A stretch of DNA of 40,929 nucleotides from a virus. A model generated the notes under the pieces. It was given only the letters and a program-made list of their open reading frames with translations, searched no databases and was not told the origin of the DNA. The stretch is from positions 1 through 40,929 of IMG/VR virus record IMGVR_UViG_3300022752_004849; one strand, 5' to 3'. Of this stretch, positions 20,381 to 37,741 are shown in pieces; the first letter of the stretch is position 1; every line of letters starts with the position of its first letter. Both the position numbers and the translations under genes were made by a program.

Positions 20381-21487
20381 TTTTTAACCTTTCAATTATA
20401 TGACTTACATCTGTTAAACCTAATTTAGGATTATTCATAATCCAATTATAATTGTGTTCTACAATAGGTTCAACGTTACTTAACCAATTAATCCATTCAC
20501 TGTCGCTAAAATTATATAATCTCTTAGTCTCTTGAACGATTAATTTTATCCTTTTTTCATCGTCTTCTTCTAAGTCATAAGATTCATCTATGTAAGGCTC
20601 AAAAGTTTTTAACCCCAATGATCTTAAATTTTTTAAAAATCCAGGAACGCTTAGTATTATAAAGGGATGTTTCATTATAACTGGTTTATATGTTTTTTCT
20701 GTTATAAAGATACCCGGTACATATGATCTACTTTGAAAGTCAAACCTATCGCTGAAGTATAAAGTTTCTGTAACAAGGCTGAAATATGTATCGTTGTAGA
20801 TAAATTCATCATCCTTATCAACCCATATTGGATTTGACTTTTGAGTTGAAGAAGCATTGACATGCATTGGAAAGAGGTTTTTATTATCTCTTAATCTTGA
20901 AGCATACTCTGGATATTTTATTTCAACAGTCTGACACAAATTTTCAAACCAAGTGAAGTCATCTTGCCAGCCACCATAAAAACTAGTAATAGATCTATCT
21001 AATAAATTATTTGTAATTAAATCTGCGAGCAACATTGCCCTATGTGCCCTATGATTTTTGTTAAGACAATTAAATATTTTTGGCTTTTTTTTAATTTCAA
21101 ATTTTGGCTTAGCTTTACCTGCCTTGACGACGTCTGCATATATATTTGTTGTTAATAATATAAAATTGTAAGGCAGATTTAGACTTAATTTAATAGTGTC
21201 AAAATCATTTTCTGCATTAATTGAGCCGGTAACCAAACAAAAATCATTTTTATCGAGTTGAGCAAGTTGTACAACATTAAAAATTTTTTTACACTGATGT
21301 TCTGTTAAAGCTTCAGATCCATCAAAAAAAACAACAAAAGGTTTTTTTGAACTTTTTATCCTATTGGCCAAATCTCGGTCTGATCTTTCGAAAAATCCTA
21401 TAGGAGATCCTGCAGAAATATTATAAATTTTTTCTTGATATTGCGCTAACTCAGGATAAATCCTAAAAAAAGGATTATACTGCTCAT
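20364..21487 (-). CDS. Glycosyltransferase-like protein (copy 2), possibly needing a -1 frameshift
   Basis: The uninterrupted frame carries the family blocks NKNHRAHRAML, YFSLVTETLYF and FITEKTYKPVIMKHPFIIL, and overlaps the downstream radical SAM gene by 17 bases. The first usable start in this frame is a TTG at 21371 (335 aa). However, the same frame stays open and protein-like for about 40 codons further upstream (YPELAQYQEKIYNISAGSPIG), without an ATG. The natural ATG at 21487 directly follows the dehydrogenase stop (TAAATG) but is in the +1-offset frame. The two join by one -1 slip at a T TTT TTA heptamer, giving about 374 aa. Either a programmed frameshift or a one-base homopolymer error would explain it. 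Function is inferred as for copy 1. Confidence 0.6.
21464..21470 (-). promoter_or_regulatory. Candidate -1 frameshift heptamer U UUU UUA
   Basis: Read on the minus strand from the ATG at 21487, the codons are ATG AGC AGT ATA ATC CTT TTT TTA. The last T of CTT plus TTT TTA form a correctly phased X XXY YYZ slippery heptamer. A one-base backward slip continues as AGG ATT TAT CCT into the long frame. No clear downstream pseudoknot was worked out. Confidence 0.35.
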
Positions 21488-22693
21488 TTATATTTTTTTT
21501 TTGATCCTAGAATTACCATAATGGATAAAGGGTCCTTTATAAATTTCAGAGGTAATAAATCTCCAAGGATCAATTACAACGGATTGATCATTAATCACGT
21601 TATTTTTAAATAAATCTTCAACCCAAGATTCCCAATATCCTATAAAAAATAGTTTATGTTTTGTTAGATCAATATAGTCATTTGTATTGATATCGTAATA
21701 TGATACAGATCCGCCTAGACTTTCTATGTAATGACCTATCAATAAACTATAACTTCCATTTAAATATGGAACACCTGGTTTATAGGCTTTACCTATTATA
21801 CAAACATCACCGCCATATTTTAAGATAAATTCAGCTTTACGCTTTGCTTGTGCTTCCCTTGCCACCATTATGCTATCAAAAAGATCGTATTCTAGTCCCA
21901 AGCGTTGTCCCAAATATCTTAGAGCTATATTGTCTCTAGGATGGCACGCTCCCCCATCTCCCATTCCAGCCTTCATGTAGGCCGAACCCATAATTCTATG
22001 AGTGCTTTTTGCCAATGCATTTGTAACCACATCTACATTTATATTACCATTTGTTTCTGCTACATCTTGAATCATATTAACAAGGCTTAATTTAGCACTT
22101 ATAAATGTATTGTAAAATATCTTAATTGACTCTGCCTCATCCCAAGTTCCTACTTCATACCTGGGATCATTTTGCATAAACTTTTTGTAAAAATTTATAA
22201 GTTCTTCGGCTTCTCCGTCTATGCTACCATCTTCTGTTCCAATAATAACCATTTCAGGATTTACCATATCCCATTTAATGGTTCCCATAGCAATCAAATA
22301 GGGATTATATATAAATCTAGAATTTGTAATACAAGGTCTTAATTCATTCCTTACCGTACCAGGTAATACGGTACTAATAAGCACCACCATTTGGTTATAG
22401 TTAGAATATTTGTTTATTTCCGTTAAAATATTTTTAACAATATTATAATCAAAATCTTTATTAGGTAAATGACTTGTAGGAGTTTCACCGCCGTATAAAG
22501 GATCGTGAGGTGTAGGAGCTGCAACAAATATCAAATCTCTATCTTTTATGGCCTGTTCTATGGAGTCAACCATAGGAAAATTTTTAGGACATCTAAATTC
22601 TACATCATACCCAACCACATCATAGTGCTCTGCCATAACTTCAGCGCAGTCTTGTCCAAGTTTCCCAACTCCTATCATAGCAACTTTTTTCAT
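21488..22693 (-). CDS. UDP-glucose/GDP-mannose dehydrogenase family protein
   Basis: A 401-residue nucleotide-sugar 6-dehydrogenase homologue. The N-terminal Rossmann motif is MIGVGKLGQD (residues 6-15). The central helix has Lys191 and Asn195 (ESIKIFYNTF), and the catalytic cysteine is C250 in GMGDGGACHPRDN, with Asp254. The C-terminal UDP-binding-like domain has IGKAYKPGVPYLNGS. Family members oxidise a sugar nucleotide twice, using NAD, to a uronic acid through a Cys thioester, so UDP-glucuronate or a GDP-mannuronate-like donor is likely. It lacks the usual GxGYVG tyrosine, so the substrate is uncertain. It begins one base after the stop of the gene starting at 23771. Next to an epimerase and glycosyltransferase-like genes, it fits a sugar-donor pathway. 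Confidence 0.85.
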   Translation of the reverse strand: MKKVAMIGVGKLGQDCAEVMAEHYDVVGYDVEFRCPKNFPMVDSIEQAIKDRDLIFVAAPTPHDPLYGGETPTSHLPNKDFDYNIVKNILTEINKYSNYNQMVVLISTVLPGTVRNELRPCITNSRFIYNPYLIAMGTIKWDMVNPEMVIIGTEDGSIDGEAEELINFYKKFMQNDPRYEVGTWDEAESIKIFYNTFISAKLSLVNMIQDVAETNGNINVDVVTNALAKSTHRIMGSAYMKAGMGDGGACHPRDNIALRYLGQRLGLEYDLFDSIMVAREAQAKRKAEFILKYGGDVCIIGKAYKPGVPYLNGSYSLLIGHYIESLGGSVSYYDINTNDYIDLTKHKLFFIGYWESWVEDLFKNNVINDQSVVIDPWRFITSEIYKGPFIHYGNSRIKKKI

Positions 22694-22694
22694 T

Positions 22695-23771
22695 TTAATC
22701 TCTGATAAATTTTATTTTCTTTATTTTAATTGCATTATAGTAGGCAAAATTCAAGGTCAACTCTAGATGCTTGTTTTTTTCTAAAAAATCTAAAATTTCC
22801 GGGGGCCAAGAATTTAGATCATTTAAAAAATTTTCTAAATGTACCTTATTTCTTTTTGTCTTTTCTTTAGTTAGTTCTTTTAATTCTCTTAGAGGATATT
22901 TTTGAATATTTTTAAAATTTTGAGCAATAAGATCGTATCTTGTTTCCATATCTGAAACATTATCGAAACTATAATCAAATATTTCGTCATATAGTTCAAA
23001 ACCATAATCACTCAGCATTTTATGATATCCTTGACATCCTGATACAAGAAATGGCTTGTTTGTAACTATTGCAGAGATACATTTTTCAGATATATACAAT
23101 TGATTAAAACTACTTTCAGTTACCAACTGAGCATATGAACGTTTATAGTGAATTGGAAAAATTCCACTCCATCCTAATTTACCTTCAGGCATATCGTCTA
23201 AAATTAAAATTTTAGGATTCCAATATTTCCAAGGATAATTAAAAGTATCTTCTAATTTTCTACCTTCGTAACCTCGCCAGCTATTCCAACTCACAGCATT
23301 ATTTTTTATAAGATCGTGTTTAGCTAACATATCCATTTGTGTACATCTATGCCAATGGGGTTTACTATTCAAGCATATAAATGAAAATTGTAAATCTAAA
23401 TTCCAATTATCAACATAATGATCAAATAATGTATCTGTATGTTCTAGGGAAAATATCTCATGTCCAAGGATAGCATGAGCACCTAAAATTGTTCCGTAAT
23501 AAGGAAATTTTATAATTTTAAGATTGCCATAACGAGGATTATCTTGATCGTGCATTAAAGTTTGCTGCTGACTAGAACCTGTAATTATTTCTAAAGAAAT
23601 TCCTTTTTCTACACAATAATCATTTATTTTATCAAAAACATCCTCTCTGCCAAATAATCTAGTATATTCAAACTCTTGCCAATCTATTATTATTATTTTT
23701 GTTGCACTAGACTTTTGATTCTGAAGTAGTTCATATGATCCGGGAACGGCAGTAAAAATTAATATCTCCAT
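22695..23771 (-). CDS. Glycosyltransferase-like protein (copy 3)
   Basis: I start at the ATG at 23771 (MEILIFTAVPGSYELLQ, 358 aa), because an upstream in-frame codon at 23852 would overlap the previous gene by 64 bases. Family blocks: NSKPHWHRCTQMDML, AQLVTESSFNQLYISEKC and NKPFLVSGCQGYH. It aligns along its length with the next gene upstream (copy 4). Shared phrases include GYHxML, GFxLYDEIFDYSFD and a variable turn after KPHxHRC. They are therefore tandem duplicates. Block 3 has SEKCISAIV where other copies have TEKTxKP. AATAAATA lies five bases before the ATG. Function inferred as glycosyl transfer; no membrane segment. Confidence 0.65.
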   Translation of the reverse strand: MEILIFTAVPGSYELLQNQKSSATKIIIIDWQEFEYTRLFGREDVFDKINDYCVEKGISLEIITGSSQQQTLMHDQDNPRYGNLKIIKFPYYGTILGAHAILGHEIFSLEHTDTLFDHYVDNWNLDLQFSFICLNSKPHWHRCTQMDMLAKHDLIKNNAVSWNSWRGYEGRKLEDTFNYPWKYWNPKILILDDMPEGKLGWSGIFPIHYKRSYAQLVTESSFNQLYISEKCISAIVTNKPFLVSGCQGYHKMLSDYGFELYDEIFDYSFDNVSDMETRYDLIAQNFKNIQKYPLRELKELTKEKTKRNKVHLENFLNDLNSWPPEILDFLEKNKHLELTLNFAYYNAIKIKKIKFIRD

Positions 23772-23776
23772 AAAAA

Positions 23777-23784
23777 TATTTATT
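23777..23784 (-). promoter_or_regulatory. Late-promoter-like box AATAAATA, 5 nt before a start
   Basis: On the minus strand AATAAATA (7/8 match) is followed by TTTTT and the ATG at 23771. It lies in the 17-base gap after the stop of copy 4. Spacing matches the other boxes of this class. Confidence 0.3.
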
Positions 23785-23788
23785 CTTG

Positions 23789-24853
23789 TTAATTTTTTCC
23801 AAATATTTTTTTCAAGACTTCCATAAAAATTCCCTTGTCTGGATCTAGGCAAGGATCTTTAAAATTCCAAAGATGCTGAATCATAGGAGGAACATAATAG
23901 GAGTTTAGAGCTAAATCCTCAATATGATGTCGATTATGCAAAATTTTAGGAGCAATTTTTATATATAGTTTTCTTAGCTCTGAGTTTGACAACGATCTAA
24001 GCCTTGTAACATTTTGTAACATTGCATCATTACGATCGTGTATATTTTCTATAGAGTCAAAACTATAATCAAAAATTTCATCATATAATAAAAACCCCAT
24101 ATCCTTCAACATACTATGGTATCCTTGTATGCTTGATACTAAAAAAGGTTTATTAAAAAATAATGGAGCGCAGGTTTTTTCAGTGATAAAATAAGCATGG
24201 ATATTTGATTCTGAAACTATTTGCATAAATGAACGATCGTATTCATTTGGTATTTTTCCTTGAACAAATCTTTGGCCACTGGTAAAATCTAAATCAAGAC
24301 GTCTAGGTTCCCAATGCCGCCACTTGTAAAAATTTGTCTTTGGTCCAATATGTTCTCCAAATTCATACGCAAAAGAAATAGCTCCGCTATCAAATAAATT
24401 ATTTTTAGCTATCATATCCAGCAGCACACATCTATGAACATGAGGCTTATAATTCATAGATATAAAAGTATAGTCATATTCAGTTATTTGGGTTCCTTCA
24501 TATATATTATGTATATCGTAGGGGTTAGCAAACTTTTCATATTCTAAGTAACCTTTGGTCATCCAAAAATTAGGCCAATAAATTATGGGTTGAATCCTTT
24601 CATATCTTTTATTTTCAGGATCATGAAACAATCTACTTTTTGGATGTGCTCCCGAAATGATAAAAAAAGGAATTTGTTTTTTATTTGCAAAATCAACGAG
24701 TCCTTCAAAACCAGGGGTGTTACCTACTCCATTATATTGAAATTCGTACATACAAAATAAAATTAAAGCTTTAGGATCAGAAATAGAGAGAAGTTGTTGT
24801 GGCATAGCTGCACTATCCCAAACACTGACTCCAATATTTTTTCCTATTTCCAC
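23789..24853 (-). CDS. Glycosyltransferase-like protein (copy 4)
   Basis: A 354-residue protein starting with GTG at 24853, which overlaps the preceding TAG stop by one base (TAGTG), the GTG version of the TAATG junction. Blocks: NYKPHVHRCVLLDM, FMQIVSESNIHAYFITEKTCAP and FNKPFLVSSIQGYHSML. It is the closest relative of copy 3 (shared YDEIFDYSFD). It also contains ISGAHPKSRLFHDPENKRY, similar in place to ITGSSQQQTLMHDQDNPRY of copy 3, so the N-terminal half is conserved too. Predicted soluble glycosyltransferase; substrate unknown. Tandem duplication with divergence suggests that different members act on different acceptors. Confidence 0.65.
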   Translation of the reverse strand: MEIGKNIGVSVWDSAAMPQQLLSISDPKALILFCMYEFQYNGVGNTPGFEGLVDFANKKQIPFFIISGAHPKSRLFHDPENKRYERIQPIIYWPNFWMTKGYLEYEKFANPYDIHNIYEGTQITEYDYTFISMNYKPHVHRCVLLDMIAKNNLFDSGAISFAYEFGEHIGPKTNFYKWRHWEPRRLDLDFTSGQRFVQGKIPNEYDRSFMQIVSESNIHAYFITEKTCAPLFFNKPFLVSSIQGYHSMLKDMGFLLYDEIFDYSFDSIENIHDRNDAMLQNVTRLRSLSNSELRKLYIKIAPKILHNRHHIEDLALNSYYVPPMIQHLWNFKDPCLDPDKGIFMEVLKKIFGKN

Positions 24854-25647
24854 TAGAAAAGCATCCTAAAAGAATTATGATTTATGGTATTTTCTTCACG
24901 AAAGGTTTCTTCTATTTCGTGTCTGAATTCACATTTAATAAGCCTAGCAGTGCTATCAACTGCATACTTGTATGTAAGTGGAGTCATTGGTAGTCCTACT
25001 TTTTTGAGATAATTCCAATATCTAACTGGACTGGGATGATAATCTTTGGTTTGATTCTTTTTATCTTTATCGCTATAATAGATATGCCCCCATTCAAAAT
25101 TAAAATCTAGCTCTAATTCTAACATACTCTTAGGATAGGTAGAAAGAATAGAACTATAATTATCTAAGATAATTTTGATATTGGGATCTTTTTCGTCTTG
25201 TTGATAATCGAACGGAACGCTTGGCATTAATAGGGTCTGAAAAGTTTGTGATCTTAACCAATTTGTAGCAGTTACGATCAGTCCTAGATCACGGATCATA
25301 TATCCTTTTGGATCTGCAAATTTTTCAATAAAGCTTTTGTCATAGGTTTGTTGAGTGAAAATATTTCCCACCATCATCCAACCATTCTCTTTTGAGACAT
25401 ACCTATCTTCTCTGCAATAGGTGGTCCACATTACAGCCACTAAATCATTTTCATTAAATTTCATTTTATAAAACATTTCAGAGATTTTACAAATCATAGA
25501 AATGTTTCCCGAGCCGCAAAGACCAAAATTATAGAACTCTGCTTCTGGCATTTCTTTTTGAAGCATATTCGCCCAAGTCGGCCAGCAGTATTGTGTAAAA
25601 CTACAGCCAAAAACAAAAATTCTTTTGATTTTTGAAAAATCAATCAT
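24853..25647 (-). CDS. SGNH/GDSL-hydrolase-like protein (copy 2)
   Basis: A 264-residue protein with block I FGCSFTQYCWPTWANML, a glycine-rich FGLCGSGNISMIC corresponding to block II, and DYHPSPVRYW as the late Asp-His block. These match the SGNH-like protein at 9482-10369 (SGCSFS...[21 protein letters not shown]), so both belong to one phage family. If catalytic, likely reactions are O-acyl ester hydrolysis or glycan O-/N-deacetylation. It overlaps the upstream gene by eight bases and the downstream gene by one, embedding it between two glycosyltransferase-like genes. That context fits sugar-modification chemistry, by inference. Confidence 0.6.
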   Translation of the reverse strand: MIDFSKIKRIFVFGCSFTQYCWPTWANMLQKEMPEAEFYNFGLCGSGNISMICKISEMFYKMKFNENDLVAVMWTTYCREDRYVSKENGWMMVGNIFTQQTYDKSFIEKFADPKGYMIRDLGLIVTATNWLRSQTFQTLLMPSVPFDYQQDEKDPNIKIILDNYSSILSTYPKSMLELELDFNFEWGHIYYSDKDKKNQTKDYHPSPVRYWNYLKKVGLPMTPLTYKYAVDSTARLIKCEFRHEIEETFREENTINHNSFRMLF

Positions 25648-26824
25648 TTATAAACTCCGAAAAATCTTTTAATTTTTTATTTCTTAACACCTGCTGATTA
25701 TGGTCACAAATTGGAGATACATTGGCCAAAAAGTATGCTAATTCATTATCTGTCAAATTGCAAAGTCTTTCAACTTCATCTAGTATCATTTTAAGCCGTT
25801 TATCGTCGTCGAGTTCTTGATCATAACTTTCGTTTATATAAGGATTAAAGGTCTGATAACCAATTTCCCTAAGTTTACTTAAACTATAAGGAGGATTAAC
25901 TAATATAAAAGGGTGCCGTTCGCCTATAGGTTTAAATGTTTTTTCTGAAAAAAACCTACCTGGTTCTTCACCTGGAATGTTGATATAAAAATTAGTCTCA
26001 TTTACTAAGCTGAAATAAGTATTTTGATAATAATGGTCTGTTGATCTTAGTAGGGTTGCCTTATTATAAATCAATTCCTCTGTATCTAAGTACATAGGAG
26101 GTAATGATCTTATAGTTTGCTCATTTTCTTTCAACAGATTTGAAATGTATGGAAATTTTTCAACAGGATGTTTATCCATTATAATATCCCAAATGTTGTT
26201 CCAATTAAATCCATCCTCACTTGCGGCTAAGCTAACGAACCCATATTTGAGTAATTGTCTTGCTTCTAAGGATCCTACAAGCACAGGTCTATGTAAACGC
26301 CATCGTCTGTTAAAATTTATAAATTTTTTATCATAAGTTTTAAAATGCAAAGTAGGAAAAGTTTTTCCTTGACTGACTTGACTATTAATTTGTTCTGCAA
26401 CGTTAAATTCAAAAATTCTAGTCCAAATACATCTTACTGGTTTCTTGCCTGTTTGTTCAGCTAAATTTTTTATTTGAAACTTGATATCTGCACTCTCACT
26501 GACCATAATTACATTATCTTCATTTAGATTAAGAGGAATAATAAAATCATAATAAAGTGGTTCGATTAAACTATGAAAAGCTTCGTGAGAATTACATAAT
26601 ATAATATCTATCAATCCATTTTTAAGAACATCTAAAATTATTTTTGGCAATTCATCTTTTAATTTTCTCACAGCGGAAAAGTTTTTTACTTCAACAAAAT
26701 AATAAAATCTATTCTCGTCCCATCCACTAATTTTTTGTAAAAGTTCAAGATTGGCGCTCTTATGTTTCCAAATACCACCAACCTCGTCAAGATAAAGAAT
26801 TTTAGATTTATTAAGCAATCGCAT
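25640..26824 (-). CDS. Glycosyltransferase-like protein (copy 5)
   Basis: I choose the ATG at 26824 (MRLLNKSKILYLDEVGG, 394 aa). A longer reading from 26920 would overlap the radical SAM gene by 110 bases; this start overlaps it by 14. Signature blocks: NRRWRLHRPVLVG (a variant of KPHxHR), YFSLVNETNFYIN and FFSEKTFKPIGERHPFILV. It is closest to copy 2, sharing RHPFI/KHPFI, LGLKTFEPYIDESYD/IGYQTFNPYINESYD and the acidic DDDKR/EDDEKR turn. Predicted soluble glycosyltransferase-like enzyme. The N-terminal 130 residues look like a separate alpha/beta domain, as expected for a GT-B fold; that fold is inference. Confidence 0.65.
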   Translation of the reverse strand: MRLLNKSKILYLDEVGGIWKHKSANLELLQKISGWDENRFYYFVEVKNFSAVRKLKDELPKIILDVLKNGLIDIILCNSHEAFHSLIEPLYYDFIIPLNLNEDNVIMVSESADIKFQIKNLAEQTGKKPVRCIWTRIFEFNVAEQINSQVSQGKTFPTLHFKTYDKKFINFNRRWRLHRPVLVGSLEARQLLKYGFVSLAASEDGFNWNNIWDIIMDKHPVEKFPYISNLLKENEQTIRSLPPMYLDTEELIYNKATLLRSTDHYYQNTYFSLVNETNFYINIPGEEPGRFFSEKTFKPIGERHPFILVNPPYSLSKLREIGYQTFNPYINESYDQELDDDKRLKMILDEVERLCNLTDNELAYFLANVSPICDHNQQVLRNKKLKDFSEFIND

Positions 26825-27785
26825 TTTTTTGAAATTTTGGAATAATAATATCTGTGCCACAGTGGCAGTGATCTTTTCTACATACAATTTTCTTTGGGCC
26901 AACTTTAGAAATATCATCAAGGATATGTCCTATATTATCAACCTGACCACAACTAGCTAGACTTACTCGACCGATTGGATTAATAAAAATAGCGTCGCCT
27001 ACATTACAAATCCAATTTCTAAAAAAATTCTGTCGTTGAACAATAATATCATTACTATTGGTCGCATTTAATGACCCGTCTGTATATCTACTATAACTCA
27101 CTGTATTACTGGATTTGTAAGGTTTTTCTTTAGAAAAAAAACTTTCTATACTATGACTTTCAAGAAATTCTATCTTTTTTAGATCTGAATATTTCCAAGG
27201 TCCTGCATTGGTCGTCATTTCATCAAACAATGGAGTCCACTCTATAAAATAATTAGGCATAACTTTCTTTAAATGATTACCGTATTCTACTACTTCCCAG
27301 AACCTTTCCTCGTGCATCAACATTTTGGTACAAAGGTAATTTATTTTATCACATAAAAAAACATTAACATCTTGATATTTCTGCTTGTCTGCAAATTCTA
27401 TATGAAAACTAGCCACCACATCGTCAAAAAGTTTATAATGCTTCTCCCACCAAGCCAAGGGTCTGCTTAGATTCGTATTCACTGCAAGAGTGGCGTCAGG
27501 AAGTTTTTCTCTTAGCCATTGGCAAATTGGAATAAAATTTTTCCAGGCAGTAGGTTCTCCACCACTAAAAAAGAATTTAAAATGACGATAATTTTTATGT
27601 TGATATTTGTCAATTATAACACCAAGATTTGCTAGATATTTTTCTAGGTTGCCATCGTTACGATCAGTACCACTCCAATTACCTGGATTGCAATAGCTGC
27701 ACTTGTAATTACAGAAGTTATTTACTTGCCAAGTAACAGCCAAATAAGGCTCTGGTGCCTCAATGGCTATAAGCTTTGTGCCCAT
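26811..27785 (-). CDS. Radical SAM enzyme with C-terminal SPASM/twitch-like cysteines
   Basis: A 324-residue protein with the radical SAM triad near its N-terminus (C25, C29, C32 in NNFCNYKCSYC) and the SAM-binding FFFSGGEPTAW. The C-terminus has a cysteine-rich auxiliary-cluster region: WICNVGDAIFINPIGRV, LASCGQ, and VCRKDHCHCGTD. This is the standard order (core first, SPASM-like second), unlike the four upstream paralogs. Such enzymes often modify peptides or sugars through auxiliary [4Fe-4S] clusters. It overlaps the upstream radical SAM gene by 19 bases and the downstream glycosyltransferase-like gene by 14. Substrate unknown. Confidence 0.85.
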   Translation of the reverse strand: MGTKLIAIEAPEPYLAVTWQVNNFCNYKCSYCNPGNWSGTDRNDGNLEKYLANLGVIIDKYQHKNYRHFKFFFSGGEPTAWKNFIPICQWLREKLPDATLAVNTNLSRPLAWWEKHYKLFDDVVASFHIEFADKQKYQDVNVFLCDKINYLCTKMLMHEERFWEVVEYGNHLKKVMPNYFIEWTPLFDEMTTNAGPWKYSDLKKIEFLESHSIESFFSKEKPYKSSNTVSYSRYTDGSLNATNSNDIIVQRQNFFRNWICNVGDAIFINPIGRVSLASCGQVDNIGHILDDISKVGPKKIVCRKDHCHCGTDIIIPKFQKNAIA

Positions 27786-29062
27786 TCATATACCTCGCGA
27801 AGTTCGGGAATAATGTCAACAATTTTTTCTCTTCGTATCTTATCCATTTCATCATTATATTCTATAAATTCCAAAATGCCTTTCTTACTTTCTTTACTGA
27901 TATGGTTAGCAAAAATAGCACTGCCCTGCATCAAATTATTTTGGATTAAGGCAAATCCATTTCTTATATGCTCATTGTGATAATATTTGCTTCTATATAT
28001 CTGATATTTATAGATAAGTACCTGTTTAATTTTATCTGGTAAAATCTGAATATTCGACCACCAAGGATTTGTAAGAAGATTTATTCTAGGCGGAACAGAT
28101 TCGCTTATCAAATTTTGTCCCAATAGATATTCAAAAAATTTTGGATAGGTAAAAACATTGTAGATGCTGATAGTAGGTGTAATGCCGAATTCTGCGTGAG
28201 GAATTTCCTTCTTAATCAGTCTTATATTATCTTCTATTATCTCCCAGTCTGTACCTTTTCTGATGAGTTCTGCTCTATCACCTAGATCATCTAAACTTGC
28301 CCAAATCTTTATCTTTGGAAACTTCTTCCATAATTCTACAAGATCTTTTTGTTTAAATTTTAAACTCCCAAAGTTTGTTGTATAGGTTAAATCAACCTGA
28401 CTAGTTAGATTGTTATTAATCCAATATTCTAGGCTGTCATAATGTTCTTGAGTTTGTAGACTTTCGCCCCCGGCAAAATAAACCTCTTCCACATCTGCTA
28501 GATAAGGTTCCAACATTTCAAAAAACCTACCATCTTCATTAACAGATACCATTGTGGATTTCATTTTAAAGTAATTAAATAAAGCCTGTGATCCTTTTCT
28601 TTTTTGGACAAATTCTTGTGCATGAAGGCTGCTGCACTCAGGACCACAGGTTCGACACTTCATATTACAAAGGTTACTAAACCTAATGTCCATATATTTC
28701 ATTTTAAACTGATCTATGCTGCCATCTTCATTTGTATCATCAACCAAATCAATATTTGCCAAACCTTTCATAGAATTATGGCTTTGACGCATAGTCCAAG
28801 TTCCAAGATCTTCTAGTTCATAACATCTGCGGCAGGCTTCTACTGGTTTATCATAAAGCATTTCTACACGCATCTTTTTGTATTCTTCAGTGTTTAGCAT
28901 ATTGATTATGGATTCATGTTCGGATGCTGAGGCAACTGGCTTGGAACTATCTGCTACACAACAAGGCATGACCTTGCCATTAGGCCAAGCATGAAAGTGT
29001 ATCCATGGTAATATACAAAAATGTTTGCCATTTTTTATGAGATTTTCAACATAACTGCTCAC
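27767..29062 (-). CDS. SPASM-first radical SAM protein (paralog A)
   Basis: A 431-residue protein. Its N-terminal 85 residues look like a SPASM/twitch auxiliary-cluster domain: C16 in HFCILPWIHFHAWPNGKV, C34-C35 in MPCC, and C77/C80 in CRRCYELE. The radical SAM core follows with C132, C136 and C139 (FSNLCNMKCRTCG) and the SAM-binding VYFAGGESLQTQEHY. The order auxiliary domain then core is reversed from typical SPASM enzymes and matches proteins annotated as twitch-domain radical SAM in phages. It starts with GTG at 29062, two bases after... no overlap with the upstream stop at 29064, behind AGAGGATTT as ribosome binding site. One of four tandem paralogs. Substrate unknown; peptide modification is plausible. 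Confidence 0.85.
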   Translation of the reverse strand: MSSYVENLIKNGKHFCILPWIHFHAWPNGKVMPCCVADSSKPVASASEHESIINMLNTEEYKKMRVEMLYDKPVEACRRCYELEDLGTWTMRQSHNSMKGLANIDLVDDTNEDGSIDQFKMKYMDIRFSNLCNMKCRTCGPECSSLHAQEFVQKRKGSQALFNYFKMKSTMVSVNEDGRFFEMLEPYLADVEEVYFAGGESLQTQEHYDSLEYWINNNLTSQVDLTYTTNFGSLKFKQKDLVELWKKFPKIKIWASLDDLGDRAELIRKGTDWEIIEDNIRLIKKEIPHAEFGITPTISIYNVFTYPKFFEYLLGQNLISESVPPRINLLTNPWWSNIQILPDKIKQVLIYKYQIYRSKYYHNEHIRNGFALIQNNLMQGSAIFANHISKESKKGILEFIEYNDEMDKIRREKIVDIIPELREVYEWAQSL

Positions 29063-29063
29063 G

Positions 29064-30281
29064 TTATAAATCCTCTAGATCTTTTAGTTCGGGAAAAGTT
29101 TTTAAAAAACTTTCTCCTCTAATTACATCAATACTTTTTGTATGTCTCCAGAATGTTTCCTTATTTTCTTCCCAGGTATCTTGCTCGTTGGTAAAATTCA
29201 CAGCATCTTTTATTAATCTCTCGAGAAGAGTACCTTCACAATAATCTAAAAATCTTAGATGTTTATTTTTAATACGCTTTTTTAATAACCTAGGTAAACT
29301 TGTACTAGAATAATGAGATGGATTAACTGCTAGGTATAAACTATGATACCAGTCTGATGGTTTTATCAAACCCATATTAATCATGTATTCATAAAACTTA
29401 TGCAAAGTCATAAAGTTAAAAATGCTAAGAACAGTGTTAATCTGAAAATCTACAAAATCAAGTTTTCTAAATAATAAAAGGTTACTTTCGACTTCACCCC
29501 AATTAGTTCCATGCCTAATATATTCTGCTCGCGATCCATAATGATCTACACTACAACTTAATTCTATTCTTTTAAAATTTTTCCATAAACTCAAAATATC
29601 AAAATCTTTAAATTTTAGATTACTTGCATTTGTATTATATCTTAAAATAACATCAGTCTTATTTTTTCTAATCATTTCTTCTAGCAGAATGTAGTGTTCT
29701 TCTGTTATCAAAGGTTCGCCACCTGCAAAATATGCAAGATCTATATGATCAACGTGTGTTAATATTTCTTTAAGCAAATCATTTTTGCCGTGACCAGAAT
29801 GCCATAAGATTGGCAAATTCTTATCATACCTTCTATTTTCTTTAGCCCATTGGCTACTAAATTCACTGCCACAAGTACGGCATTTAAAATTACAGATATT
29901 ACTGAACCTAATGTCAAAGTACCTCATTTTGAAATCTGAAATAGAGCCATCTTCCTCAGTTTGCGGAACTAATTGATCAAAATACTTTGCAAAATTATCT
30001 TTACTATAATTTCTAAAGCTATGAGGTCCAGCCTGTTCATGTTTGTAACAAAACTCACAGATTTTACTAGGTTTTTCATTCAGCATATTAATCCTAAGCT
30101 CCTTCATTTTAGGATGATTAATAGCCTTTAATAATGTTGTATTAGCAGTATTGTCTATAGGATCACTATAGTCGTTACTGCAACAAGGATATATATCACC
30201 TTTTGGGGTCACGTTAAGGTGCAACCAAGGAAACATACAAAAAACTTTACTTTGTTGCAGTAAAAATGTTTTGTTTTTCAT
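29064..30281 (-). CDS. SPASM-first radical SAM protein (paralog B)
   Basis: A 405-residue paralog with C15 (VFCMFPWLHLNVTPKGDI), C33-C34 (YPCC), C75/C78 (CEFCYKHEQAG) and the radical SAM triad C130, C134, C137 (NICNFKCRTCGSE). The core also shows HIDLAYFAGGEPLITEEHY and SLWKNFKRIELSCSVDHYGSRAEYIRHG. It is closest to paralog C, sharing YKHE, the KMRYFDIRFxNICNFKCRTC block and LRYNTNxSNLKFKD. The start overlaps paralog C by 35 bases. The ATG at 30281 is supported because MKNKTFLLQQSKVFC aligns with the start region of paralog C. Confidence 0.85.
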   Translation of the reverse strand: MKNKTFLLQQSKVFCMFPWLHLNVTPKGDIYPCCSNDYSDPIDNTANTTLLKAINHPKMKELRINMLNEKPSKICEFCYKHEQAGPHSFRNYSKDNFAKYFDQLVPQTEEDGSISDFKMRYFDIRFSNICNFKCRTCGSEFSSQWAKENRRYDKNLPILWHSGHGKNDLLKEILTHVDHIDLAYFAGGEPLITEEHYILLEEMIRKNKTDVILRYNTNASNLKFKDFDILSLWKNFKRIELSCSVDHYGSRAEYIRHGTNWGEVESNLLLFRKLDFVDFQINTVLSIFNFMTLHKFYEYMINMGLIKPSDWYHSLYLAVNPSHYSSTSLPRLLKKRIKNKHLRFLDYCEGTLLERLIKDAVNFTNEQDTWEENKETFWRHTKSIDVIRGESFLKTFPELKDLEDL

Positions 30282-31521
30282 CAGATAATAATCCTGCTAA
30301 TTCTGGGAAAGTGTTTTCAAAACTTTCTCCGCGAAGTTTGTCCAATCTCTCGATTTCCTCTCTAAATTTTGATTTCTGTTTGAACCAAAGATCAAATGCA
30401 TAGATCCAATTTTCTATTTCTTTTACTTTAGGAACAGAATGCTTATGGAATTGACTTTGCTCCATTTCATAGGCTAGTTTTTTAATTCTTAATATAGTTA
30501 GATCTTTTAACTTTTTCGGTAGAATTTGACTAGTCAAGAATCTAGGATTATACATCATAAAAATAGGATGGCTGAGTTTTTTCTTTTTCCCATGCACTCC
30601 AATTTCTCTAAGATATCTAAAAAAATCATCTAATGTTAACGAATTAAAAATACTCATCACAGTTTGAAAATGTAAATCCACACTAGATTCTTCAGATAAT
30701 TCTATTAGATTTGATTCTACATTTGACCATTTAATTGTACCATGCCTTATGTAGTTAGCTCTGTCTCCGTAATGGTCAATGCTGGCATAAACCTGGACTG
30801 GTTTGTTAAATTGTCTCCATAACTCAATAATGTTTTTGTCTTTAAACTTAAGATTAGACAAATTTGTGTTATATCTAAGTTCAGTATCTTTTTTGTTCTT
30901 TCTTAATAGTTCTTCAAGGATAAGATAATGTTCTTCTGTTATCAAAGGTTCGCCACCTGCAAAATAAACACATTCCATGTTATCTACTTGATCTAAAACC
31001 CCTTGAATAAACTCTGGCTTGTTAGTTCCTTTTTCAAAATGGATGGGTATTCCTTGTTTACGATTTTCCTGCTCCCATTGACTACTATATTCAGGACTAC
31101 AGGTTCTACATTTAAAATTACAGATATTATCAAATCTAATATCAAAGTATCTCATTTTAAAATTCTTCAATGAGCCGTCTGGTTTGGTATCTTTTAAAGA
31201 TTCTGTGAAATATTGTCCGTACTCCTTGTTAACAGTATTACGAAAGGTGTGAATGCCTTCATCTTCATGCTTATAACAACTTACACAGGGTTTACTTTCA
31301 CGCTCATTTAGCATGTCTAATCTCAATCGATTCATCAGCGGACTGTTGACTATTTCCATCAAACTTTGTTTATGACTAGTTCCTACGATAAATTCAGGAT
31401 TAGCTATGCAACATGGCATAGCATCTCCAACTGGTTTGGTATGTATAGTAATCCAAGGGACCATACAAAATGTACGGCTTTTTTCTAAAAGAAATTTCTT
31501 CTTATCAGTATCAAATTTCAT
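30247..31521 (-). CDS. SPASM-first radical SAM protein (paralog C)
   Basis: I start at the ATG at 31521 (MKFDTDKKKFLLEKSRTFC, 424 aa), which overlaps the upstream stop by 11 bases. A longer frame from 31572 adds an unconserved hydrophobic stretch. Auxiliary cysteines are C19 (TFCMVPWITIHTKPVG), C37-C38 (MPCC) and C79/C82 (CVSCYKHE). The core triad is C134, C138, C141 (NICNFKCRTC), with VYFAGGEPLITEEHY. The C-terminal end has FRYLREIGVHGKKKK and LRGESFENTFPELAG; the ESFxxTFPEL motif recurs as ESFLKTFPEL in paralog B, suggesting a shared C-terminal element. Substrate unknown. Confidence 0.85.
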   Translation of the reverse strand: MKFDTDKKKFLLEKSRTFCMVPWITIHTKPVGDAMPCCIANPEFIVGTSHKQSLMEIVNSPLMNRLRLDMLNERESKPCVSCYKHEDEGIHTFRNTVNKEYGQYFTESLKDTKPDGSLKNFKMRYFDIRFDNICNFKCRTCSPEYSSQWEQENRKQGIPIHFEKGTNKPEFIQGVLDQVDNMECVYFAGGEPLITEEHYLILEELLRKNKKDTELRYNTNLSNLKFKDKNIIELWRQFNKPVQVYASIDHYGDRANYIRHGTIKWSNVESNLIELSEESSVDLHFQTVMSIFNSLTLDDFFRYLREIGVHGKKKKLSHPIFMMYNPRFLTSQILPKKLKDLTILRIKKLAYEMEQSQFHKHSVPKVKEIENWIYAFDLWFKQKSKFREEIERLDKLRGESFENTFPELAGLLSDEKQNIFTATK

Positions 31522-32893
31522 TTTTAGACCAACAGGAATTATAAAAATCTTCCATTTCAGGAAACGTAGCAATAAAATCAGTATTCCTTCTTTGATCTAA
31601 TTCATTAAACCAATTATAAAAATCCTTACGCCCTTCTAACAGCTTGTTTTTATCGTAATGCGTAGTTTCCATATAACTTACTATCCTTCTAAATCTTTCT
31701 AATTCTACCAGGCTAAACTTACAAGGATCTTCTTCGTTTAAATTATCTTGCATAAATTCTAGACAATTGTTCATATAAGTCAAATATTCTTTTGGTAAAA
31801 TATTGATGTCATATTGTAAAGGTTCTTTTAAATATGGAGTATCAAATCTTACCATTTGAAATTGATCAGTACGGTTATAAGGATTATATTTTTTACGCCA
31901 TTCTAAGATTTTCTCTAATAAGTCTTTAAATGTGGTAATACTAAGGATATTAAAGGTTATCATAAAACTAATGGGATGCCCTACCTTAGTAAGATATTGG
32001 TCAAGATTTCGTTCCCATAGACCAAGATCCAAGCCAGTTCTAATATATTCAGCTCGTGGACCCCAAGTATCTATACTAGTGAATAATTTAAAGCGTCTAA
32101 TAGATTTGTTTTCTATAAGACAATTAACCTGCTCTACAAGTTTATCCACCATTCCAGGTTTGACTCCTAGATTACTATTGATATTGAGTTCCAATTGGGG
32201 CTGAGGATCCTTCTTTATATCATCCAACAAATGCCAAGTGCTTTTATGCATTAAAGGTTCGCCGCCTGTGATTCTAAGAATAGTAAGACTTTTCTTTAGG
32301 TCAGGCCACCAATCCCACCATGCGTTGACATATGGATTATCTTCTTCACGCTCATAAAGTTTAAAGTAATCAATATCACATCTGTGATTCTTTACAGTGG
32401 TAACAGGACCATGTTCTTTTATTTCGTTATAGAATCTGCTGCTGGCTTTGGGGTGACAGTAGCCGCATTTGAAATTACATTCATTACCAAAACTTATTTC
32501 TACATATTCGGGATTGACATTTCTATTCCATCTGCTGGCTGCAAGCCTCAATCTATCTTCTGTAAAAATTGTAGCACTTTTGATATGCCTATCGCTGATA
32601 TATGATTCTCCTAGACCTTCGATGTTCCAGCAATATTGACAACCTTTGGTCTGTACTCCATTTAACATTTCTCTGCGTTCAAATTTTTTATGCAGAGTAT
32701 TATGCAAAGCACTAGGATTCTCCTCTATTTCTTGTAAGTCAATTTTGTGAGGAGGTGGATGATAGCAGCTATGATTTTCCCCTGTCTGGAGATATAGAGT
32801 CACATGAAACCATTTGGCCAGACAAAAGCTCTTGCTAATACCATTAATTATTGGTATTACTTTTTGTATTCTTTGATGATCTGTGTCCGACAT
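31511..32893 (-). CDS. SPASM-first radical SAM protein, divergent (paralog D)
   Basis: A 460-residue paralog, the most divergent of the four. The auxiliary motif is C24 (SFCLAKWFHVTLYLQTG), C43 (SCYHPPP, one Cys where the others have CC) and C85/C88 (CQYCWNIEGLG). The core triad is C139, C143, C146 (NECNFKCGYC), followed by LTILRITGGEPLMHK and STWHLLDDI. The loss of one Cys may change auxiliary cluster number or ligation; His45 is nearby. The C-terminus repeats the family element FIATFPEMEDF. The start overlaps the GT-A gene by 50 bases, but no other Met precedes the required SFC motif. Confidence 0.8.
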   Translation of the reverse strand: MSDTDHQRIQKVIPIINGISKSFCLAKWFHVTLYLQTGENHSCYHPPPHKIDLQEIEENPSALHNTLHKKFERREMLNGVQTKGCQYCWNIEGLGESYISDRHIKSATIFTEDRLRLAASRWNRNVNPEYVEISFGNECNFKCGYCHPKASSRFYNEIKEHGPVTTVKNHRCDIDYFKLYEREEDNPYVNAWWDWWPDLKKSLTILRITGGEPLMHKSTWHLLDDIKKDPQPQLELNINSNLGVKPGMVDKLVEQVNCLIENKSIRRFKLFTSIDTWGPRAEYIRTGLDLGLWERNLDQYLTKVGHPISFMITFNILSITTFKDLLEKILEWRKKYNPYNRTDQFQMVRFDTPYLKEPLQYDINILPKEYLTYMNNCLEFMQDNLNEEDPCKFSLVELERFRRIVSYMETTHYDKNKLLEGRKDFYNWFNELDQRRNTDFIATFPEMEDFYNSCWSKNEI

Positions 32894-34700
32894 TTTTAAA
32901 AGGATATAGTTTCTTAAAGTAATTTTCTAGAAAGTTATAATCATTGATTTGTTTGATGTTTTTTTGTTTCATAGCCCAGGATTGTGCGTCTTCGACTGCC
33001 CTAGCAGCCCAATCTGCATGATCTGCATCAAAATTGACATTTGCCCAAGCTCTCATTCTTTTTTGACTTTCTGCATCATTTTTAAAACTTAATTTTACAA
33101 CCTCTCTAAAAACACTGCGCCAGGTATGAAAACTACTTGTATTGAATCTTGTTTCATTACTTACCAATGGGATGACTTTCAATTTAGGACCTATACTTGT
33201 TGTGAGATCCGTGGTCCAAGTTTCAGCTTCTTTAACCAATTGAGTAGGAAACAACTTGACACCTCCGTATCCGTATTCAGAACTATTAAATGGATTTTTA
33301 CTATGCCAGACATACACACAATCTAGATCCCAAACACTAGGTTGAAAATCAAATTCAAATTTATTATCAATATAACAGTCGGCATCAACTACATAAAACA
33401 TACTGGTCTTGGCCAGTGATGCTGCCTTTTTATGTGCCTCTAGAATTCCTGTAATTCCTTTTATTCTTTTTGCAGCAGGACACTTTGATAACAGACGTTC
33501 GTAATTTTCATCTGCATTTGGTTCGTCATAACTGATAAAAAACACATCGTAATCTTCATTTATGTCAGGCCTTATATAACCCATAAATTTTTCTTGGCCT
33601 GTCTGTTTGATATATTTTTTAGCCAACCATACTCTTTTATTTTTTGTAAAGTTCGGACTGATATACCAGGTCAACACACTATCAAACTCATCGAGCTGCA
33701 TGTCATACTGGTTTACCATACTGATATCAAATTCAATATCAGGCATATCTGGATTAAATTCAATAGTAAAAGTTGGACTTATATTTCCTACCACCGTGTA
33801 ACCTTCTGGTTGATCAATAAATTTGACCTTTACTGCCCAAACATCATCACTTGCTTCAGGTAAGTGCTTTCTGTCAAGATAATAAATGTTTTCATAGGCA
33901 AAATCCTGAAAATGAATATTGGAAAAATCTACTTCAAAATTTATTTCACCCAGTTGGTCATTATAGATCAATTGTGGTTCAGGTGTAATACTACCCAACC
34001 ACTTCCATCCTTTGGTTTGTCTATAGGTTGGTTTTACCTTGACCAACCATACTTCTTCTTCGGCACCTCCACAATGACTGGGATCAAGATAGTAGGCACA
34101 CTCATAAGCCAAATCCCAATAGGGTGGTAATGCTCCATCAAGATCAACTCCGTCGTAGGGCACATCAGGATTCAGGCTGACCTCAACTTCTGGAATAAGG
34201 AAACCCATTTCCTTAATTCCTAGACTTTGTTTCCCTAACACATCACAACTCATTACCCAAACTTTATCCTCAGAAGGATTAAACTGAGGATCTACATACC
34301 ATACCATAGTATAGTCAATATCCCATGGTTCTGGTTCAAAATTTCCAAAAGGACTTTCTATAAAAGTCATAGATTGATCAATATCTGGATTTTTCCTCCA
34401 CATCAATTGTGGAGGTTGTATATCAATTTCTATATAGCCAGTTTCTGGTGTCCAATCTTCATAGAATAATTTGGCCACCCACTGATCTCTATAGGTCCAA
34501 ATAATACATTCTCCTTGATTTTCTGGAATTTCGGTTATATAATATGCAACCTTGACTTCTACTTCAGGATTGAGTACAAAACATAAAGCATAAGGTCCTA
34601 TGAGCTCCTGCAATTCTATATCATATAATTCAGGATCGTCCTTCCATTCTACAGATCGAACCTGTTCTTCTCTCAATTTAGGAAATCTATCTATGAACAT
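32844..34700 (-). CDS. GT-A-like glycosyltransferase with N-terminal tandem repeats
   Basis: A 618-residue protein of a family common in T4-like cyanophages. Residues about 90-370 hold at least four imperfect units of roughly 60-70 residues, each of the form WDxxYxxxYYLDPxxxxxxxVWLVKVK...GxIxPE...NPD. Examples are WDIDYTMVWYVDP, WDLAYECAYYLDP and FAYENIYYLDR. The C-terminal part is GT-A-like: FFISYDEPNADENYERL, KRIKGITGILEAHKKAASL, the metal-binding DAD motif near residue 440 (YVVDADCYID), VYVWHSKNPFNSSEYGYGG and a terminal Trp-rich helix. It is the first gene of the island, behind a hairpin and TATAAT-like box. It probably transfers a sugar in the cytoplasm; acceptor unknown. Confidence 0.8.
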   Translation of the reverse strand: MFIDRFPKLREEQVRSVEWKDDPELYDIELQELIGPYALCFVLNPEVEVKVAYYITEIPENQGECIIWTYRDQWVAKLFYEDWTPETGYIEIDIQPPQLMWRKNPDIDQSMTFIESPFGNFEPEPWDIDYTMVWYVDPQFNPSEDKVWVMSCDVLGKQSLGIKEMGFLIPEVEVSLNPDVPYDGVDLDGALPPYWDLAYECAYYLDPSHCGGAEEEVWLVKVKPTYRQTKGWKWLGSITPEPQLIYNDQLGEINFEVDFSNIHFQDFAYENIYYLDRKHLPEASDDVWAVKVKFIDQPEGYTVVGNISPTFTIEFNPDMPDIEFDISMVNQYDMQLDEFDSVLTWYISPNFTKNKRVWLAKKYIKQTGQEKFMGYIRPDINEDYDVFFISYDEPNADENYERLLSKCPAAKRIKGITGILEAHKKAASLAKTSMFYVVDADCYIDNKFEFDFQPSVWDLDCVYVWHSKNPFNSSEYGYGGVKLFPTQLVKEAETWTTDLTTSIGPKLKVIPLVSNETRFNTSSFHTWRSVFREVVKLSFKNDAESQKRMRAWANVNFDADHADWAARAVEDAQSWAMKQKNIKQINDYNFLENYFKKLYPFKNVGHRSSKNTKSNTNN

Positions 34701-34735: not shown

Positions 34736-37700
34736 TTAAGGCAGTGGGCGCAAACTGGTTATTACTCTATCTCTAGCATCAAATCCTAAAAAGAACAGTG
34801 TATTTAGACCCAACGAATTAGGATTTCCGAAGTCATCAAGTCTAGGACCAAGTTGGTTGGCGGCAGTTCTATATCCTGCATCTTGATCAACCTTGCTATG
34901 ATAATAAAAAACACGCTGTAATCTATCCAAAGTTCCGTCTAATGTGGTATCTCCGCTGGTTTCTCTAAGGCTGCAAATACTGATATAGACATTACCTGAA
35001 AAGTCTTCTTGAACTTGAAAAAGACTATGCTCTCCCTCATAATGGCCAAAGTACCAAGAATAATCTTTATTGTCTACCAAAGTTGTTTTCTTTTTATAAA
35101 GATAAGTTCCATCTGCCAAAGTAGAGTCACTATAATAGGTTTTATTTGTGGGTGTATCACTTAAAGGAATTTCGTAGACAGAACGCCATTGGAAGTAGGC
35201 ATATTTGCCCCGACCAGCTTTGGGTTTAAGATATTCAGGGCTCCACCAATCTGGGTCTCTGTCTTTTAACATGGGCATGGCGTCACCACCTGAACCTACT
35301 CCTAGTGTCAAGATTCTTCGTCCTTTGACGTAGTCTATTCTTAAACCTACAACCGCATCAGGTAAACTGAAGCTACTGGTCCAGGCAGCTCTTTCTGTTT
35401 GAATAATTTTAGGAACCTGTAGATATCTATTGGGAGCTCCCATAAGGTCATGTAAATCAGATATACCTCCGTTGCTGATTGGTATCCTTGATATTGATGC
35501 TGATTCAATTAGGGCCAACAAGGTACTTGTTGAGTTAAGTGTAGGGTCTCTTTCTAATAACAATGCTGCAATACCTGTCACTTGAGGTGCTGCCATACTG
35601 GTTCCACTAAATTTCATAAAATAGTGACTGCCTGCACTGCGAGGATCACGGACAGGAGTATCATATGCAAATCCATTTATGGTAATGCCGGTGCTGGACG
35701 TCCATGCTGACTGCACATAAGCTCCTGGAGCGAAGATATCAATTCTTGGACCTCTATTGCTAAAGTTTGCTAGACCATCTACACCTATTCCATCAACAGC
35801 AGCTCGTATGGCACCTACACAAATGACACCATCCACTGTGGCAGGTAAAGGACCCCGATTATACCAATATTCTATAAACATTCCAGGATAAAGTGTACGC
35901 AATTCTGCTGAAGTTTTACTGACGTATGATCCGCTGATGTATTGATAATAGCCACCATTATCACGATAATATAAAATTAAATTTGGAGTAGAGTAAGATC
36001 CAGAACCTGCAGGATATACTCCAGGTAGTTCTACGATTCCTGCAGGAGTTCCATTACCGTCATGAATTCTTACAATATTGTTATAATTAACATCTGCGGT
36101 GGATCTTGCTATATAAGAACTTTCATTCATTGCACTGGCAACAACGACAACACCTTCATTAATACACTCTTGAATAGCTGCCAGCCAAGCACTTCTATTT
36201 GCACTTTGATAATGAATTACCAGATTGATCCCATCCTTGAGGAAAATTCCAGCCTGTGCCAAAGTAGTGGCTGTAAATGTACTACTGCCATATTCTTGGG
36301 GCTTAAAGGTTTGACCCTGGTAGACAATCTCTTTTATGCTACTCCAAGACACATTAGTTACATTTGTAGCAAAACTGCAATTGGCCACTGTTGGCCTTGT
36401 GTTACCACTGTTTTTCTTGAGCCTATGTGCGGCGGCAAGGTATTTAAAGACCATTCCAGCAGTTCCTGAGAATTGATCTATATCCATTGAATATACAAGG
36501 GACTTATTGGCCCAACCTTGGCTGTTGCCTGCGGCAATGCCAGCCACATGCTGTGAATGCTCATGTCTGCTATCACCTCTCACATAAGTGGGAGTGTAGG
36601 TAAGTCCTATTCTTCCTGTGTCACCTACTTCAGCTGCCAGAGAGTACCAATTAAAATTCTGCACTCTTGAACCACCTGTTCCATCTGAAAACAGGGCAAA
36701 CTCCGGATGACTGGGCTCAACGTCTCCTGTATCTACTATTACAACATCAACCCCTTGACCTGTAGCGGCCAACTGTATGCTGCCAGGTACCTCACTGATT
36801 CCACCGTCTCCCCAATTGGCCGTGGGGTTATAGCCCAATGTGCTGCTCAACAGACCCCAATTTTTAAATTTAGGATTATTCCAGTAGCTCTTACTGAAAA
36901 AGTCACTGGATATGGTGTTGACACTGGGTGAATGAGTGGCTGTGTTCACAGCGGAAATGCTAAGGCTGGGGGTGGTGATAGTCAATGTAGATACATAAAC
37001 ACCCTCAATGTCATTGGTCAGCCACCCATCAAATCTCAAAGTTATGCTGTCTGGTTGAATATCATCAATGGTCCAGCTCTTATGACCTTGAATGGTAGCA
37101 GTAAAATCATAATTGTAGTTTTCAATGAATGAACCAAAAAGATCTGCGCTCAGCTGATATTTGATCACACTGTTTTCACCAGGTAGTGTGGTTGATGTAG
37201 AATATTCTGAGGGAGATATACGCACAGCAGCATCACTGGTTATATTTACCCTGGCATTGAGCCTGGCGAAAGGAGTATCTGCATAGGGAGTTGGAAACAA
37301 GACCACTTCATCAGCTAGGCCCGAGCTATCTGCTTCATAGCTTAGGTAAAATAATCTATAGTCTCCCGCCTCAATGGTCCAAGGAGGCGGTAAAAATGCA
37401 TTATAATTGGGTTGAGCCTTGGCAAAACGCTCGGTATATGTAGGGGTACCTACATAAATTGGTGTTGACCCTTGGTTACGCACATACACACGTTTTCTTA
37501 CTCCTCTTAAACCTGGATAGGAGATAAATTGACCATAGGGGTAATCGTCTTGAATGGTCAACAGCTGGGTGCTGGTTGTAGCAGTGTTGAGTCTAGTTCC
37601 ATCCAGATGCAAGGTTGTGCCGCCTATGGGCTTGGGCCCTTGCAAAACACCTCCACTGACAATGTAGCCAAATGCACTGGTAAAGGTAAGGCTGCTTGCA

Positions 37701-37741
37701 AAATCTGTTAGAACTTCACTTCTAATGCTTTGAATGGCCAT
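34736..37741 (-). CDS. Subtilisin-like (S8) serine protease on a virion-like scaffold
   Basis: A 1001-residue protein. Residues 1-290 are Ser/Thr/Tyr-rich and beta-like (FGYIVSGGVLQGPKPIGGTTLHLDG), resembling phage structural modules. The peptidase S8 domain follows with Asp337 (VDVVIVDTG), His395 (HSQHVAGIAAG, where the usual HGTHVAG reads HSQHVAG), Asn539 (VVVVASAMNES, oxyanion position) and Ser715 (FSGTSMAAPQVTG). About 250 further residues (YYSDSTLADGTYLYKKKTT, LDRLQRVFYYHSK) form a C-terminal domain. No signal peptide. The intact triad suggests an active protease, perhaps virion-borne to cut host surface proteins or to process fibres. It begins one base after the stop of the upstream 547-aa gene. 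GC increases toward its N-terminus. Confidence 0.85.
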   Translation of the reverse strand: MAIQSIRSEVLTDFASSLTFTSAFGYIVSGGVLQGPKPIGGTTLHLDGTRLNTATTSTQLLTIQDDYPYGQFISYPGLRGVRKRVYVRNQGSTPIYVGTPTYTERFAKAQPNYNAFLPPPWTIEAGDYRLFYLSYEADSSGLADEVVLFPTPYADTPFARLNARVNITSDAAVRISPSEYSTSTTLPGENSVIKYQLSADLFGSFIENYNYDFTATIQGHKSWTIDDIQPDSITLRFDGWLTNDIEGVYVSTLTITTPSLSISAVNTATHSPSVNTISSDFFSKSYWNNPKFKNWGLLSSTLGYNPTANWGDGGISEVPGSIQLAATGQGVDVVIVDTGDVEPSHPEFALFSDGTGGSRVQNFNWYSLAAEVGDTGRIGLTYTPTYVRGDSRHEHSQHVAGIAAGNSQGWANKSLVYSMDIDQFSGTAGMVFKYLAAAHRLKKNSGNTRPTVANCSFATNVTNVSWSSIKEIVYQGQTFKPQEYGSSTFTATTLAQAGIFLKDGINLVIHYQSANRSAWLAAIQECINEGVVVVASAMNESSYIARSTADVNYNNIVRIHDGNGTPAGIVELPGVYPAGSGSYSTPNLILYYRDNGGYYQYISGSYVSKTSAELRTLYPGMFIEYWYNRGPLPATVDGVICVGAIRAAVDGIGVDGLANFSNRGPRIDIFAPGAYVQSAWTSSTGITINGFAYDTPVRDPRSAGSHYFMKFSGTSMAAPQVTGIAALLLERDPTLNSTSTLLALIESASISRIPISNGGISDLHDLMGAPNRYLQVPKIIQTERAAWTSSFSLPDAVVGLRIDYVKGRRILTLGVGSGGDAMPMLKDRDPDWWSPEYLKPKAGRGKYAYFQWRSVYEIPLSDTPTNKTYYSDSTLADGTYLYKKKTTLVDNKDYSWYFGHYEGEHSLFQVQEDFSGNVYISICSLRETSGDTTLDGTLDRLQRVFYYHSKVDQDAGYRTAANQLGPRLDDFGNPNSLGLNTLFFLGFDARDRVITSLRPLP

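Follow-up and report, generated by a model that had tools for sequence, protein, structure and literature searches.

Four tandem radical SAM paralogs with the auxiliary domain in front of the core

The window analysed here, a 40.9-kb IMG/VR virus record (IMGVR_UViG_3300022752_004849), carries on its minus strand four adjacent radical S-adenosylmethionine (SAM) genes at 27767–32893, transcribed in the order D (31511–32893), C (30247–31572), B (29064–30281), and A (27767–29062) and encoding products of 405–460 amino acids. The genes are tightly packed: the upstream gene u (32844–34700, minus strand) shares 50 nt with the start of D, B and the end of C have 35 nt in common, A begins with a GTG 1 nt past the stop codon of B, and the end of A is overlapped by a fifth radical SAM gene, R (26811–27785, minus strand). 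The start listed for C is a TTG at 31572; judging from the sequence, the true start is probably the ATG at 31521, which lies downstream and overlaps the last codons of D.

An earlier sequence-only reading had described the four as radical SAM paralogs in which a SPASM-like domain precedes the core, and the profile searches confirmed the domain order. All four proteins match NCBIfam NF033640 (N_Twi_rSAM; curated cut-off, 170 bits) nearly end to end, with 357 (A), 360 (B), 349 (C), and 306 bits (D) and E-values of 1.7e-106, 1.9e-107, 3.4e-104, and 3.4e-91, respectively; matches of this length rule out chance similarity, and no feature speaks against membership. As had been read from the letters, each protein contains C-x(n)-G-x4-C followed by CxxC, and then CX3CX2C about 50 residues later. 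When a profile built from 100 relatives was compared with solved structures, positions 11–87 paired with residues 185–262 of BtrN, its C-terminal twitch domain, and positions 112–146 paired with residues 16–50, its core (PDB 4m7t). This swapped pairing indicates that the auxiliary domain precedes the core here, whereas it follows the core in BtrN. The three core cysteines (C139, C143, and C146 in D numbering) and a GGE motif (G210-G211-E212), the motifs of the radical SAM superfamily (PF04055), are invariant in the 100 sequences.

The term "SPASM-like" held only in part. A, B, and C each have an N-terminal match to Pfam SPASM (5e-9 in C, where Radical_SAM scores 8e-9). However, a full SPASM domain carries two auxiliary clusters and a seven-cysteine pattern that includes CX2CX5CX3C and a further cysteine, and A–D do not have this pattern; before the core they contain solely C..GX4C(C)..CxxC, which identifies a twitch domain rather than a complete SPASM domain. 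The same distinction separates them from the SPASM peptide maturases PqqE, AlbA, and SuiB, to which they are related through the auxiliary-cluster domain: A–D have cysteines for one auxiliary site, and their domain lies ahead of the core. The repeated (S)FxxTFPEL element near the C-terminus is present as described, but it lies within the NF033640 profile (the matches reach positions 396–398 of 398) and is therefore a trait of the family; A carries IIPEL in its place. A review describes SPASM and twitch domains as C-terminal extensions (PMC9012708). Because NF033640 is named after its N-terminal twitch domain, the reversed order had already been catalogued, and it belongs to a known, functionally unstudied family; we found no paper in the literature on the function of N_Twi_rSAM proteins or on the front position of the twitch domain.

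Conservation of the cluster cysteines and the signature of D

In D, the twitch cysteines are residues 24, 43, 85, and 88, and the core cysteines are residues 139, 143, and 146. The corresponding positions (B15, B33, B75, and B78 in B, together with the three core cysteines) are invariant in 518 of 518 phage proteins, although this invariance is partly selected, since the phage loci were gathered with short peptide patterns, some of which span core or twitch cysteines. A bacterial set gathered with the core pattern only showed the same conservation, with the twitch and core cysteines kept in 53/53 D-like proteins and in 87–94 of the 94 others. BtrN of butirosin biosynthesis (PDB 4m7s/4m7t) shares the four-cysteine twitch, the C-x17-C spacing, the G-x4-C register, and the radical SAM core, but differs in its opposite domain order and in being only remotely similar. 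Its auxiliary cluster has four cysteine ligands (PMC9012708), and by homology the four N-terminal cysteines of A–D are predicted to bind one auxiliary [4Fe-4S] cluster.

Unlike BtrN, A, B, and C have an extra fifth cysteine beside the second twitch ligand. Of the 351 non-D phage proteins, 350 have this residue, which follows B33 in the CC pair; in D-type phage proteins the position is Tyr, His, or Phe without exception (167/167). The D-like proteins of Bdellovibrionota and allied bacteria have the same AKW...SC[HY] signature, with His, Tyr, or Phe in 53/53. The fourth protein had been said to have lost one of its paired cysteines. The partner is indeed absent, but the cysteine retained in D sits in the G-x4-C register of the second twitch cysteine of BtrN, so no cluster ligand has been lost and the four expected ones are all retained. 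On this comparison, SC[YH] in D is the signature of a phage-plus-bacterial subfamily; its members lack the second cysteine of the CC pair, and none of the matching models is specific to this subfamily. The idea that D is a degenerate copy was rejected, given that Tyr, His, or Phe is fixed in the 167 phage and 53 bacterial proteins.

Phylogeny of the four paralogs

The strong divergence that had been noted within the array was evident from pairwise comparison, with A sharing 35%, 35%, and 21% amino acid identity with B, C, and D, respectively. Phylogenetic trees were constructed with FastTree (165 representatives) and with a mixture model in IQ-TREE (67 representatives), and both placed A–D in separate old lineages. 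A fell within a phage A clade (support 100/100). D grouped with phage D proteins (98/83), nested within the larger phage-plus-bacterial D group (100/99). B and C grouped together (100/99), C as a supported subgroup (100/99) and B less firmly; these sisters are the youngest pair. The D lineage is deep and also occurs in Bdellovibrionota. D is also the most conserved of the four, with orthologs of 60–76% identity in many viral contigs.

The four are paralogs of one family in both trees; placement in unrelated clades, which the sequence-only reading had named beforehand as telling against it, was not seen. Recent local duplication, the other point on which it had asked for a phylogeny, was ruled out by both trees: A–D are long-standing distinct paralogs, which split before these phages spread. 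The separate conservation of every lineage makes functional divergence probable, which fits the earlier suggestion of related enzymes with different sites or substrates.

A conserved cassette in related phages

We counted gene arrangements in non-redundant phage loci containing a D gene, requiring at least 6.5 kb past D for the downstream counts. Gene u lay directly upstream of D in 76 of 85 loci, three to five consecutive N_Twi genes were found in 47 of 65, and R came directly after the N_Twi genes in a count that was likewise 47 of 65. The order u, D, further N_Twi copies, and R is repeated across dozens of phage contigs; in some related phages the radical SAM gene k comes directly after R, and in some loci a 2-oxoglutarate (2OG)-Fe(II) oxygenase gene is placed between u and D. 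A search for recognisable tail or neck genes upstream of the cassette in the relatives gave mostly PHROGs of unknown function.

The view that a four-copy array is exceptional therefore did not hold: most related loci have three to five copies, larger arrays occur in Bdellovibrionota (see below), and a published T4-like environmental genome, TARA_ERS488813_N000010, has 12 radical SAM genes (PMC5332604). Such an array is what the related phages usually have, and the noteworthy part is the conserved, ordered cassette. The fixed order, the four distinct old lineages, and the invariant cluster ligands indicate that these genes are used together as a unit. A seemingly chromosomal copy in Neomarinimicrobiota (L204, 335-kb contig) was set aside; the metagenome-assembled genome holds a T4 portal gene on a contig whose length would allow it to be this one, and L204 is probably a large T4-like phage misbinned with the bacterium.

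Distribution in Bdellovibrionota and cultured phages

Bdellovibrionota genomes contain up to 19 members above the family cut-off, and the largest array packs 14 of them into about 32 kb. The 14-copy array (L244/L245; contig G013:C192, 22–54 kb) has genes on both strands, and an Asp/Asn beta-hydroxylase gene and a 2OG-Fe(II) oxygenase gene lie among its N_Twi_rSAM genes. On a Bacteriovoracaceae contig, a homolog of the u core (245 bits; L249, 5398–6336) stands beside N_Twi and R-like genes, so that the partnership of u, N_Twi, and R exists outside obvious phage sequence too.

Two cultured Vibrio phages also belong here. In K566 (L242, 11959–18701), two GT8 genes and one weak GT4-like gene are interspersed among four members of the family; KVP40 (L243) has three members. 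The members in the Vibrio phages K566/K567 and KVP40 match the family profile, but they share about 21–22% identity with those of the window, are arranged in another gene order, and have no u homolog within the stretch read. PagP-annotated and LpxC-like genes lie close to those of K566, a hint of chemistry on lipid A or the surface.

Neighbouring genes in the window

R has a radical SAM core (Radical_SAM, 3e-7) in the usual order, as had been proposed, with a cysteine-rich stretch (C260, C279, C302, C307, and C309) behind the core; none of the NCBIfam and Pfam SPASM models detects this stretch. Further downstream, k (18167–20380, minus strand) encodes a B12-binding radical SAM protein (Radical_SAM, 4.5e-16; B12-binding, 1.6e-9), and together with R and A–D this makes six radical SAM genes in the window.

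The sugar genes downstream of the array encode a UDP-glucose dehydrogenase (21488–22693, between h and j; UDPG_MGDP_dh, 7.9e-17) and an NAD-dependent nucleotide-sugar epimerase (17214–18170, minus strand; Epimerase, 9.5e-42; phrog_540 nucleotide-sugar epimerase, 2e-71). Between R and k lie, all on the minus strand, e (25640–26920), f (24853–25647), g (23789–24853), h (22695–23852), and j (20364–21371). The f product has GCSFT close to its N-terminus and is SGNH-like by motif only. The products of e, g, h, and j share an EK...PF motif, and their alignment shows invariant R, E, EK, and PF; they are four paralogs of one unrecognised family, so that two gene families have been multiplied side by side.

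The u protein is GT2-like; in the window it has several N-terminal repeats of about 68 residues, a number that varies among homologs. Every repeat contains a [VAI][WY]x[LIV]D site, and behind the repeats lies a core of about 300 residues in which D439 and D441, a D-x-D motif, are invariant in 50 homologs. Relatives with repeats include L111 (3599–6373), L115 (6599–9037), and L114 (156–2576); most u proteins (about 300–350 residues) are the core alone. Just upstream of u, 34736–37741 encodes 1001 residues that include a peptidase domain of the subtilisin (S8) type; the protein shares PHROG 9158 with the tail gene at 6683–8908. A promoter scan gave a signal at chance level.

Possible functions of the cassette

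We tentatively favour, at somewhat short of an even chance, a role for A–D in non-redundant, BtrN-like oxidative tailoring of a glycan made by the phage. The four genes belong to one operon, and in each enzyme the [4Fe-4S] cluster at CX3CX2C would cleave SAM to yield a 5'-deoxyadenosyl radical, which would abstract a hydrogen atom from a substrate of polar character. The second electron would then pass to the auxiliary cluster, giving a two-electron oxidation like that of BtrN. The substrates may be sugars, or a sugar-containing product of the flanking glycan genes, namely the GT2-like u, the UDP-glucose dehydrogenase, the epimerase, and possibly e, g, h, and j. Further steps could come from R and from k, the B12 enzyme, the four paralogs would each have been retained for a different position or sugar, and the product may decorate the virion or the surface of the infected cell.

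The oxidative chemistry is suggested by the BtrN register of the cysteines and by the oxidation of an aminocyclitol by BtrN (PMC9012708). The glycan is suggested by the sugar genes in the window, by the weak GT2 signal and conserved D-x-D of u, by the interleaved GT8 and GT4-like genes of K566, and by pelagimyophage host-recognition islands, which contain glycosyltransferases and vary by radical SAM cassettes (PMC7029224). The pelagimyophages and TARA_ERS488813_N000010 resemble the window in having several radical SAM genes; theirs are in marine T4-like phages, in part within host-recognition islands. The setting of the array agrees with these published islands, and by analogy the window, which has baseplate and tail-fibre genes at 5220–8908, may itself contain such an island; the comparison is by description only, and the portions of PMC7029224 and PMC5332604 at hand do not mention the twitch order, the four lineages, or the u-D-N_Twi-R arrangement.

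Several observations weigh against a glycan substrate. The GT2 Pfam matches to u homologs are weak (6 of 50 members, best 3.8e-4), the u of the window has no GT2 Pfam match, and u has no PDB match, so that it may not be a glycosyltransferase. The EK...PF motif of e, g, h, and j is reminiscent of GT10-type glycosyltransferases; no library supports this, and the four have no Pfam or PDB match and no detectable similarity to known glycosyltransferases. A general glycosyltransferase link in bacteria was considered and rejected: among 12 genomes, nearly all Bdellovibrionota, 5 of 42 N_Twi clusters lay near GT1 genes against 2.6 expected, which is not significant, and the glycan link is therefore not general to the family. 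The largest bacterial arrays are flanked by unrelated genes.

Modification of a protein or peptide, similar to that of ribosomally synthesised and post-translationally modified peptides (RiPPs), is the leading alternative, though an unlikely one; successive C–C or thioether-type crosslinks would be made in the u repeats or in the upstream tail protein. The SPASM/twitch enzymes PqqE and SuiB act on peptides (PMC9012708), and the tandem repeats of u, with their recurring [VA][WY]x[LIV]D, belong to the gene that so regularly precedes D. The oxygenase gene that separates u from D in some loci, and the hydroxylase and oxygenase within the Bdellovibrionota array, would also suit such a role. However, most u proteins lack the repeats while the array is present, and the recurring site could instead form a strand with a structural role. 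Unlike in the PqqE, AlbA, and SuiB systems, we found no precursor peptide gene in the A–D array, where the overlapping and abutting genes leave no room for a precursor open reading frame between u and e; a precursor may lie farther away. Pfam shows no extra domain in A–D, although no search aimed at a RiPP recognition element was made.

Chemistry on small molecules or nucleotides, of the aminocyclitol, cofactor, or viperin kind, appears improbable; its product would be a soluble metabolite that serves infection or counter-defence, not a surface glycan. The best PDB matches, viperin (core), BtrN, cytosylglucuronate decarboxylase, and MoaA, are all small-molecule enzymes, and in bacteria the arrays are located apart from GT1 genes. 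Nevertheless, the similarity to viperin is limited to the shared radical SAM core (viperin family NF038283, at most 28 bits in A–D against a cut-off of 180), and sugar genes accompany the phage cassette. That the four are recent redundant duplicates without separate roles, the fourth decaying, is scarcely credible: the tandem layout and common family would fit, but each has its own orthologs elsewhere in separate supported clades, and D, the most conserved, has its Tyr/His fixed in the subfamily and all catalytic cysteines intact.

Beyond oxidative tailoring of a glycan by A–D, it is conceivable, if quite doubtful, that u-D-C-B-A-R(-k) forms a radical assembly line, with five or six radical SAM enzymes acting in turn on one phage product. 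If so, that product, possibly the 68-residue repeats of u or a glycan built by u, would carry a previously unseen modification of the virion or cell surface. Members of the family are common in uncultured phages, and their number has grown strongly in the predatory-lineage Bdellovibrionota. The identity of the substrate would reveal the surface or virion chemistry of these phages, and would also test how an auxiliary cluster works from the front of the protein.

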